From Gammaproteobacteria bacterium (lineage in GTDB: Bacteria > Pseudomonadota > Gammaproteobacteria > Pseudomonadales > Azotimanducaceae), in the NCBI GenBank assembly GCA_026706665.1, contig JAPOYI010000109.1, forward strand, positions 1 through 64,000: DNA of 64,000 nt. The letters run 5' to 3'. The notes beneath the pieces were generated by a model. The model was not told where the DNA came from, made no database searches, and worked only from the letters and a program-made list of their open reading frames with translations. Each line of letters opens with the position of its first letter. Position 1 is the stretch's first letter. Shown here in pieces: positions 6,942 through 12,531 of this stretch. The position numbers and the translations under genes were made by a program.

Positions 6942-6976
6942 CCCGCGCGGAGGCGGGGCATCGATGCGAATCGTCC

Positions 6977-7945
6977 ATGGAGGATCAGGAACCCGGGCAG
7001 GCCGAACTTCCATCCATGGGCGATGTCCTCGCTGCGGCGGAGCGTATCGGGGGTCACGCTATCCGCACTCCCGTGATCACGTCCTCGACCCTGGACGCCA
7101 TGTTCGGGGCGAGGCTTTTCTTCAAGTGCGAGAACTTCCAGAAGGCCGGGGCGTTCAAGTTCCGAGGCGCCTGCAATGCCGTGTTCTCGCTCTCGGAAGA
7201 CGATGCGCGGCGCGGTGTGGCGACGCACTCGTCGGGCAATCACGGGGCTGCGCTGGCACTTGCGGCGAGGTTGCGCGGCATTCCCTGCCGGGTGGTGATG
7301 CCCCGCAATGCGCCGGACGTCAAGAAGGCCGCGGTGTCGGGCTATGGTGCGAATATCGATTTCTGTGCGCCGACGCTCGCTGCGCGGGAGGAGATGCTCG
7401 AGGACGTTGTCGCCCGAACGAACGTTGCGGTCGTTCACCCCTACGACGACTCGCGCGTCATTGCGGGACAAGGCACCGTGGCGCTGGAACTCATCGACGA
7501 CGTGCCGAATCTCGACCTGGTCCTGACCCCCATCGGTGGCGGCGGTCTCACTGCGGGCGTGGCGCTGGCGGTGAAGTCGCGTTCTCCCGGGACCGGAATG
7601 GTGGCCGTCGAACCTGAAGGAGCGGACGACGCCTGCCGGTCGTTTCGTACCGGGGAACGACTGCCTTCCGTCTCGCCGAAGACCATCGCAGACGGGCTGC
7701 TGACATCGGTCGGCGTGCGCAACTTCGCGCTGATCCAGCGTTGGGTCGACGACATAGTGACTGTCGACGACCCGGCGATAATTCGCGCAATGCGCCTCGT
7801 TTGGGAAAGGATGAAGATCCTCGTGGAACCGTCGGCCGCGGTGCCTCTGGCCGCCCTCGTCCAGAACCGGATCGACGTGCGTGGCAGGCGCGTCGGTATG
7901 GTCCTTTCCGGGGGCAATGTCGACCTGGACAGGTTGCCCTGGTAG
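6977..7945 (+). CDS. PLP-dependent serine/threonine dehydratase or racemase family (threo-3-hydroxyaspartate ammonia-lyase / serine racemase-like)
   Basis: FKCENFQKAGAFKFRGACNAV (PLP Lys motif), SSGNHGAALALAA, PIGGGGLTAG, VLSGGNVD. Confidence 0.9.
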   Translation: MEDQEPGQAELPSMGDVLAAAERIGGHAIRTPVITSSTLDAMFGARLFFKCENFQKAGAFKFRGACNAVFSLSEDDARRGVATHSSGNHGAALALAARLRGIPCRVVMPRNAPDVKKAAVSGYGANIDFCAPTLAAREEMLEDVVARTNVAVVHPYDDSRVIAGQGTVALELIDDVPNLDLVLTPIGGGGLTAGVALAVKSRSPGTGMVAVEPEGADDACRSFRTGERLPSVSPKTIADGLLTSVGVRNFALIQRWVDDIVTVDDPAIIRAMRLVWERMKILVEPSAAVPLAALVQNRIDVRGRRVGMVLSGGNVDLDRLPW

Positions 7946-10301: not shown

Positions 10302-11003
10302 GTGCAACGACCGATCGAGAAACCCGCGGGAACGCCGGTTGAGAACCTGGACACGCCGGCGCTCATTGTCGACCTCAACAGGTTGGACGCGAACTTCGCC
10401 GCGGTACCGGGTCCGGCACGGGCGGAAGTCTGGGTCCACGGGACGCCGGCGATCGCCCGACGCCAGTTGTCACATCCGATGGTTTTTGGCATCGCGGTGC
10501 GCAGTATCGGCGAGGCGGAAGTGTTTGCTGCGGCGGGGTTCGATGACATTCGGATACTGCGACCGTTGGTGACCGAGGTGTCGAAACGCCGCGCTGAAGC
10601 GTTGCCAGGATCGATTCACGTGGCTGGATCGGCGATGGGGCAGGGCGACCGTCTGTCCCTGTGGGGCGCCGACGCACTGGACGGCGCGGTGACTGTCTCG
10701 GCGCGCGTGACGAGCGTCCCGGAACAGGGGCGCGCAATTCACGATTGCGGGCAGAAGGCCGTGGGCCGCGACCACGGCGATCCGGGGATCGTCGGAAGTG
10801 ATCGTCTGAAGGCATCGGGAGGCAGCGCGGAACACGGCATCGTGCTTTCTCCGCAGGACGAGCCGCCGTTCGCCGTCGGCGACTGGCTGCAACTGGTTCC
10901 GGCCGACATCGCCACCGTGTTTGCCTTGCACGACTTTGCGTTCGGCGTCCGGAGTGGCCGCCTTGAGATAGTCTGGCCCATCAGCGCGCGCGGAGCCTTC
11001 TGA
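10302..11003 (+). CDS. Shortened D-threonine aldolase/DSD1-like protein, predicted catalytically inactive
   Basis: VENLDTPALIVDLNRLDANF start and SAEHGIVL...VGDWLQLVP C-terminal region match the downstream paralogue family, but only 233 aa and lacks the RPHGKNHK PLP-lysine segment. Confidence 0.65.
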   Translation: MQRPIEKPAGTPVENLDTPALIVDLNRLDANFAAVPGPARAEVWVHGTPAIARRQLSHPMVFGIAVRSIGEAEVFAAAGFDDIRILRPLVTEVSKRRAEALPGSIHVAGSAMGQGDRLSLWGADALDGAVTVSARVTSVPEQGRAIHDCGQKAVGRDHGDPGIVGSDRLKASGGSAEHGIVLSPQDEPPFAVGDWLQLVPADIATVFALHDFAFGVRSGRLEIVWPISARGAF

Positions 11004-12085
11004 TGATCGGGATGCCCGTTGAAGCGCTTGAGACGCCCGTGCTGCTGGTCGACATGGACGCCCTGGAACACAACATCGGTGTCATCGCGGACTTCTACAG
11101 CCATAGGCACATTCGCCTGCGGCCCCATGGCAAGAACCACAAGTCGCCCGGCATACTCGCAATGCAGGTCGCGGCCGGGGGCACGGTGGGCGGTGTGTGT
11201 GCCGCGAAGGTCTCCGAGGCGGAGGTATTCGTGGATGCCGGCGCGGGCAACGTGCTGATCGCGAACCAGGTGGTGGACGCGGACAAGATCCGACGTCTCG
11301 CGTTGCTCGCGGGACGGGCCGAGACAACGGTTGCCGTCGACGACGAGACGCAGGTCGGGAAGCTGGCCGCCGGTGCCCGTTCGGCGGGCACGACCCTGGG
11401 CGTCGTGATCGAAATCGATACCGTCATGCGCCGCGCCGGCGTGCGCTGCATCGAGCATGCCGTTGTCCTGGCGCAGCTCGTCGAGGGAACGCCGGGTCTG
11501 CGGTTCCAGGGAGTCATGAGCCACCAGGTGCCAGCCGCGCGCGCACCGAGCGGGGAACAACGGTTCGCCGAAGGGGGACGGTCCATTCAACGGGTGGTGG
11601 AAGCGAAGAGGGCGATCGAGGCAGTGGGCATTCCGGTGGAAATGGTCTCGACCGGAGAGTCGTGGACTTACGACGTGGCCGCATCGTGCCCGGATGTCAC
11701 CGAGATTGAGGGCGGGACCTACGCCCTCATGGAGGTCCCGTATGGCTACATGCGCGAGTTTCGACTTGCCGCGCGGGTGATGGGGCGCGTGTACGCCCGC
11801 CCGGACGCCCGCACTGCCATAGGCGATGTGCCCATCGAGGCCATAGGCGCGCCCAATGGCTTGCCGACCCTGGAAGGACTCGACGGCGTCAGGGTGACAG
11901 GTATCGACCACCACGGCGTCGTCCTGTCAGGGGAGGACGTTCTCCCCCTTGAGACTGGCGCGCACTTTTTCCTGCTCACGCACCAGCAGGACGTCACCGT
12001 GAATCGTTGGGACCGCCTGGTCGGCGTGCGCGCCGGCGTCGTTGAAGCCATATTCGAGACTCCGGCACGAGGTTGCGTGCACTAG
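11003..12085 (+). CDS. D-threonine aldolase / D-serine dehydratase-like (alanine racemase N-terminal fold) PLP enzyme
   Basis: VEALETPVLLVDMDALEHNI...RLRPHGKNHKSPGIL (PLP Lys), STGESWTYD, IDHHGVVL, LTHQQDVTVN. Confidence 0.88.
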   Translation: MIGMPVEALETPVLLVDMDALEHNIGVIADFYSHRHIRLRPHGKNHKSPGILAMQVAAGGTVGGVCAAKVSEAEVFVDAGAGNVLIANQVVDADKIRRLALLAGRAETTVAVDDETQVGKLAAGARSAGTTLGVVIEIDTVMRRAGVRCIEHAVVLAQLVEGTPGLRFQGVMSHQVPAARAPSGEQRFAEGGRSIQRVVEAKRAIEAVGIPVEMVSTGESWTYDVAASCPDVTEIEGGTYALMEVPYGYMREFRLAARVMGRVYARPDARTAIGDVPIEAIGAPNGLPTLEGLDGVRVTGIDHHGVVLSGEDVLPLETGAHFFLLTHQQDVTVNRWDRLVGVRAGVVEAIFETPARGCVH

Positions 12086-12294: not shown

Positions 12295-12531
12295 ATGGTT
12301 TCCGTATCCATGGTCGAATTTCGACGCGACGCTGAAGGTGTTCTGCAACGCGTCGGCCGAGGTGAGCGACTGGTGTTGACTTATCGTGGCCGCCCGGTAG
12401 CCCGGCTTGAACCCTTTACGGAGCCGGCCACTTCCGTTAGCGACCCCATTTACCGCTTGGCGCAGCTTGCCGCTGACCGGGGAGAGTCGCTCACCAACAA
12501 GGAAATGGACGCCATCGTCTATGGCCGATGA
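12295..12531 (+). CDS. Phd/YefM-like antitoxin
   Basis: MVSVSMVEFRRDAEGVLQRVGRGERLVLTYRGRPVARLEP; overlaps downstream PIN gene by 11 nt. Confidence 0.8.
   Translation: MVSVSMVEFRRDAEGVLQRVGRGERLVLTYRGRPVARLEPFTEPATSVSDPIYRLAQLAADRGESLTNKEMDAIVYGR

Follow-up and report, generated by a model that had tools for sequence, protein, structure and literature searches.

A truncated D-threonine-aldolase-like pseudoenzyme is conserved with an overlapping paralogue and is likely a subunit of a heteromeric PLP protein

In the 64,000-nucleotide stretch of DNA analysed here (the window), a short member of the D-threonine aldolase (DTA) family, encoded by gene A, runs into the start codon of a longer paralogue, gene B. 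The initial annotation described A as a pseudoenzyme coupled to an intact paralogue and left two possibilities for it: decay, or recruitment as a regulatory or heteromeric subunit. The features concerned are as follows.

10302..11003, + strand: gene A, a truncated DTA/BhcC-like pseudoenzyme of 233 aa (from the open reading frame, homologues and AF2 model)
11001..11005, + strand: the TGATG overlap between the stop codon of A and the start codon of B
11003..12085, + strand: gene B, a full-length BhcC/DTA-related PLP protein of 360 aa with a non-canonical active site

Gene A begins with a GTG codon, and its product has both the N terminus (LDTPALIVDLNRLDANF) and, near the C terminus, the SAEHGIVL...VGDWLQLVP stretch that had been attributed to it. 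The C-terminal part is a significant match to the PF14031 domain (E = 2.3e-14), and sequence similarity to D-threonine aldolases and 3-hydroxyaspartate aldolase of known structure extends over both halves; among PDB sequences, A matched the D-threonine aldolase 4v15 (AxDTA; E = 3e-19) and also the D-3-hydroxyaspartate aldolase 6qkb, and it matches B in two stretches. The best curated family was BhcC (NF045642), with a score of 86.7 bits that lies far below the 690-bit cut-off. A could be aligned to AxDTA over residues 18-130 (apart from a gap at 43-49) and 270-377; what lies between these two blocks aligned only over a short, doubtful stretch, so that ~150 residues are gone and the barrel is largely absent, as the initial annotation had stated. 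The AF2 model of A was confident (pLDDT 87.4), its best PDB fold match in Foldseek was again AxDTA (E = 1.6e-18), and its TM scores to AxDTA-type structures were ~0.80-0.84 by query length. Thus, by its PF14031 domain, its PDB sequence matches and its fold, A is a member of the DTA family by ancestry and by structure.

Gene B, modelled like A with the family fold, is a normal full-length member in its architecture (pLDDT 85.6; TM ~0.92 to 4v15). It matched the alanine racemase N-terminal domain and the PDB sequences 4v15 (1.5e-40) and 6qkb (1.1e-52), and its best curated family was likewise BhcC (NF045642), at 233 bits and again far below the cut-off. The full-length barrel and beta-domain are present, and the PLP lysine (Lys44) is found in 19/19 B sequences. 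The description of B as intact held for this lysine but not for the rest of the site: in AxDTA numbering, Tyr187 is replaced by His, His193 is not conserved and the metal ligand His347 is replaced by Gln in all 19 B sequences. The PLP-phosphate loop is also altered. Because Tyr187, His193 and His347 are missing, we do not call B a D-threonine aldolase. Its much altered cis site may support a new chemistry, or little chemistry, and any reaction of the predicted A:B pair is probably not the standard aldol cleavage of DTA; we infer that the pair would act on a D-configured or beta-hydroxy amino acid.

If A were a fragment left by decay or by a local deletion and kept by chance, its truncated barrel and the loss of its PLP lysine and metal ligands would be readily accounted for, and relatives of the same length would not be expected to recur. 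A protein-pattern scan of GTDB r220 (one genome per species, two motifs, so that remote forms could escape) found 22 loci with A homologues, all from Gammaproteobacteria or Pseudomonadales metagenome-assembled genomes. Wherever a contig end does not cut them, the homologues are 228-236 aa long and without stops; they are 59-91% identical to A over the best segment. In all, A has at least 22 further loci in two genera of one Pseudomonadales family, among them one deep member at 55% identity. Bin names such as RHO, COS and IRC suggest that the bacteria are probably sponge associated. Pairwise omega values (NG86) of ~0.12-0.40 for A and 0.09-0.27 for B indicate purifying selection on A.

B accompanies A throughout. 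The B type was present in 24/24 genomes of the two genera (9/9 of the window's genus and 15/15 of the second genus), and in 21 of them A lay directly 5' of B; in the others, three in number, B is too close to the end or start of its contig for the presence of A to be judged. No A without B was seen among the genomes of the two genera examined. In the window, the TGA of A (11001-11003) and the ATG of B (11003) have one base in common, as previously reported, and at all loci examined the stop codon of A likewise overlaps or adjoins the start codon of B, an arrangement that suggests translational coupling. In one genome (loci L055, 8702-9779, and L103), an apparent frameshift interrupts B downstream of an intact A; this could reflect an assembly error or a broken B.

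The pair appears to be confined to these two genera. We found no short A-like proteins outside them in 343 genomes of the order and 369 of the class, and none elsewhere in GTDB r220 with the two-motif scan; nor did any B closer than ~237 bits turn up in 399 genomes of the phylum, full-length B proteins of the two genera scoring above 520 bits. At the thresholds used, A and B were the only DTA relatives in the two genera and a canonical DTA was absent, although most other genera of this family possess one; A-B thus appears to substitute for the canonical enzyme. In a quick tree, A and B each sat on a separate long branch, and the two genes may or may not be sister duplicates. An origin of A from phage or plasmid was rejected: viral contigs held no relative, and plasmids gave only partial matches, at less than 60% identity and none covering 80% of A, those listed being annotated, where annotated at all, as BhcC or DSD1 family.

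The genes around the pair change from lineage to lineage, and A-B is constant across at least seven contexts. The two closest relatives share the gene order of the window (BhcB-like, MFS, enolase superfamily, A, B, enoyl-CoA hydratase). At other loci, the neighbors are a divergent PhyH oxygenase, a TonB receptor with a CoA transferase, IlvD, a solute-binding protein with MraZ, BatD with a biotin-dependent carboxylase, or a GFA enzyme. Since only A-B is constant, the association favors a direct functional link between the two genes over an order simply inherited, and because neighbors differ between lineages, we rejected a shared pathway read from them as a general argument. Taken together, the same-length homologues in two genera with their invariant motifs, omega values well below 1 and a linkage to B maintained in changing neighborhoods rule out decay or local deletion, and we give that option of the initial annotation practically no credence.

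Several of these neighbors are recorded here for their own sake. The window carries a BhcB-like beta-hydroxyaspartate dehydratase/threonine dehydratase gene at 6968-7945 (+), followed downstream by an MFS transporter gene and then a divergent enolase-superfamily gene. The BhcB-like gene is the best match in the genome to NF045641 (446.7 bits; cut-off, 550) and is seen beside A-B only in the window and its two closest relatives, a hint of beta-hydroxy-aspartate metabolism that extends no further than the window's own lineage. At four other loci (L040, L042, L048 and L054), a PhyH-type oxygenase gene lies directly upstream of and divergent from A, with an intergenic region in common, and the product matched PF05721 in L040 and L048. 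A PhyH-type amino-acid hydroxylase would fit a role for the pair as a beta-hydroxy-amino-acid enzyme; such a gene is not beside A in other lineages. Between B and the enoyl-CoA hydratase gene of the window sit a small open reading frame that by eye resembles a Phd/YefM-type antitoxin gene (12295-12531, +) and, adjoining it, one for a PIN-domain protein (PF01850; 12407-12937, +). No PIN homologue was matched at the two closest relatives, and the two frames are therefore probably a recently gained toxin-antitoxin module.

What A might contribute to B can be judged from the structure of AxDTA, a head-to-tail, alanine racemase-like dimer in which two loops of the second protomer's beta-domain, residues 295-298 and 319-323, help to build the active site and the metal ligands act in cis (PMC4401734). 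Our alignment comprised 22 A sequences, 19 B sequences, AxDTA, BhcC and, as outgroups, 29 full-length members of the family taken from other genomes. The positions discussed below, in AxDTA numbering for the family and in the numbering of each protein otherwise, are encoded as follows.

10431..10433, + strand: Trp44 of A, where the family has its PLP lysine (AxDTA Lys59); Trp in 22/22 A, Lys in 29/29 outgroups and 19/19 B
10749..10760, + strand: Gly150-Gln-Lys152-Ala153 of A, corresponding by alignment to AxDTA loop 295-298, a putative trans donor (loop role, PMC4401734)
10821..10835, + strand: Gly174-Ser-Ala-Glu177-His178 of A, corresponding to AxDTA trans loop 319-323
10905..10913, + strand: Asp202-Ile-Ala204 of A, the remnant of the cis metal site His347/Asp349
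11132..11134, + strand: Lys44 of B, the predicted PLP lysine (RPHGKNHK), in 19/19 B
11831..11842, + strand: Pro277-Ile-Glu279-Ala280 of B, in place of the family trans-loop motif GxK (Asp279 in most relatives)
11900..11914, + strand: Gly300-Ile-Asp302-His303-His304 of B, the second trans loop, with Glu322 replaced by His
11984..11992, + strand: Gln328-Gln-Asp330 of B, the metal loop, with His347 replaced by Gln and Asp349 kept, 19/19

Twelve cis residues (His57, Lys59, Arg157, Tyr187, His193, Thr233, Gln249, Gly251, Ser252, Tyr260, His347 and Asp349) are invariant in the 29 outgroups, as are the trans-loop residues Gly295, Lys297, Asp321, Glu322 and His323, with one exception at His323. A has lost the cis set. 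The initial annotation was right that both the PLP lysine and the metal-ligand region are replaced: in a gapless alignment, RAEVWVHG with Trp44 stands against RPHAKAHK with Lys59, and in all 22 A sequences His347 has become Asp, and Asp349 has become Ala, Thr or Pro. The presence of Trp in 22/22 A also disposes of the idea that the homologues would all prove to be full length with the lysine. B, by comparison, keeps His57, Lys59, Arg157, Gly251, Tyr260 and Asp349 in 19/19 sequences. The trans loops follow the opposite pattern. Gly295 and Lys297 are kept in 22/22 A and 0/19 B, and Glu322 and His323 are kept in 22/22 A, with Glu322 in 0/19 B, whose first loop has mostly Pro for Gly295 and Asp or Glu for Lys297, a sequence conserved among B but unlike the family. 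Only Asp321 is reversed, being Ala in A and kept in B; in AxDTA, its main-chain amide alone is proposed to touch the substrate (PMC4401734).

At the 90% level, A kept 0/12 cis and 4/5 trans-loop residues, and B kept 6/12 and 1/5. The discordant columns (A:B) were 0:6 in cis and 4:1 in trans at this level (Fisher p = 0.015) and 0:6 and 3:1 at the 50% level (p = 0.033), a test that is only moderate because the columns are few and each lineage is counted once. The reciprocity is visible only with the literature-based cis/trans split: when A and B were compared over the whole beta-domain, no significant difference emerged (p = 0.76), since this domain also contains the cis-acting metal loop.

These observations suggested how the two proteins might work together. 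A is likely a conserved pseudoenzyme subunit of a heteromeric PLP protein, and of the readings offered by the initial annotation the heteromeric subunit best fits the homologues, the linkage to B and the residue pattern. On the strength of the sequences, we think it fairly probable that A and B form an obligate heterodimer with one chimeric active site, and we rate at slightly better than even the fuller proposal of a natural, obligate heterodimer of fold type III (the alanine-racemase fold), one in which a homodimer's active site was partitioned over two genes after duplication, B supplies a lysine barrel with new chemistry and the short, lysine-free A acts as loop donor only. The heteromer would take the place of the family's usual homodimer. 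The ancestral site would have combined one subunit's barrel, with the PLP lysine, PLP contacts and metal loop, with two loops of the other's beta-domain. B would now give the barrel, with PLP on Lys44, and A, without a working barrel, would lend its partner the beta-domain loops Gly150-Lys152 and Ser175-Ala-Glu177-His178. Each A:B dimer would thus have one chimeric working site, and the opposite interface, between the pseudo-site of A (invariant Trp44 and Arg67 where residues touching PLP would stand) and the altered loops of B, would be catalytically dead; the stop/start overlap would hold A and B near 1:1. The sequences and monomer models show conservation, constant pairing, purifying selection, the predicted folds and the reciprocal residue pattern; the dimerization of A with B and the catalytic role of the chimeric site we infer. 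As A is without a PLP site, its kept loops would be purposeless in an A:A dimer, and with no canonical DTA turning up in these genomes apart from the pair, the barrel of B is the sole family barrel to which they could contribute.

Several points argue against a chimeric site. The cis site of B is much altered, the residue test is only moderate, and the long separate branches of A and B do not mark them as sisters. A further point is the Asp321 exception, lost in A and kept in B. Finally, the trans loops of B are replaced rather than degenerate: their mean identity within B (0.84) is close to that of the A loops within A (0.85), and this conservation implies that they have a role. They could form the interface to the A pseudo-site, or they could belong to a re-tooled site in a B:B homodimer, which is possible, with A regulatory. 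Like a prozyme, A would then bind B and switch or stabilize it, allosterically or by relieving autoinhibition, and would lend no catalytic residues. The evidence for obligate pairing fits such a role equally well, the conserved loops of B could complete a site alone, and there is a precedent in the trypanosomatid deoxyhypusine synthase, whose activity a dead paralogue raises 3000-fold (PMC3663545). Regulation of this kind gives no account, however, of why A has kept the very trans-loop residues that B replaced and lost all cis residues, and we regard it as a serious but rather unlikely alternative. It is improbable that A has an independent function, such as amino-acid or cofactor binding, and is tied to B for pathway co-expression only. 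The pseudo-site residues Trp44, His46 and Arg67 are invariant and could belong to a ligand site used by A itself, but A has only half a barrel, its family loops are known to act in a partner's active site, and it was never found without B, whereas pathway partners would be expected to part sometimes under reshuffling.

The best-described pseudoenzyme subunits on which a living paralogue depends are eukaryotic. If the heterodimer reading of A-B is true, it would add a bacterial case that comes with a natural variant series and makes a clear prediction about structure; in its fold class, laboratory mutants have already shown the trick to work. It would make it possible to test the passage from a homodimer to an obligate heterodimer through the loss of different halves of a common active site, and the automatic labels "D-threonine aldolase" for B and "fragment" for A would be misleading.

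None of the papers searched names both D-threonine aldolase and heterodimer, and the known systems each resemble A-B in part. The AxDTA-type enzymes (4v15, 7dib and 7yqa) are like A and B in fold, N-terminal DTP motif and beta-domain, and like B in the PLP lysine, Arg157, Gly251, Tyr260 and Asp349. They are encoded by one full-length gene and form homodimers whose single chain type carries every catalytic residue, whereas in A-B two unequal paralogues divide these residues between them, and Tyr187, His193 and His347 are missing from B. BhcC (6qkb, NF045642) is the best curated match of both proteins, and a BhcB-like gene lies upstream in the window; unlike BhcC, A and B fall below the 690-bit cut-off and have no canonical metal and base residues. 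In the trypanosomatid prozymes (the AdoMetDC prozyme and DHSp), a dead paralogue is likewise conserved alongside a catalytic one and is required for activity in known cases, just as A is conserved and co-inherited with the lysine-bearing B. The prozymes have other folds, are eukaryotic and act by a mechanism described as allosteric activation, in contrast to the overlapping bacterial genes and truncated dead subunit of A-B. A parallel in mechanism would be the Entamoeba ODC (EhODC), also of fold type III, in which mixing two inactive mutants, K57A (PLP lysine) and C334A (trans residue), restored 29% activity because their heterodimer contains a single functional site (PMC3289617). There, too, the site is shared across the dimer interface and the lysine-less subunit lends trans residues. 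The EhODC pair consists of laboratory mutants, whereas A-B would be natural and evolutionarily fixed, with one subunit shortened; the division into a cis keeper and a trans keeper expected of an EhODC-type pair is what B and A display, Asp321 excepted.
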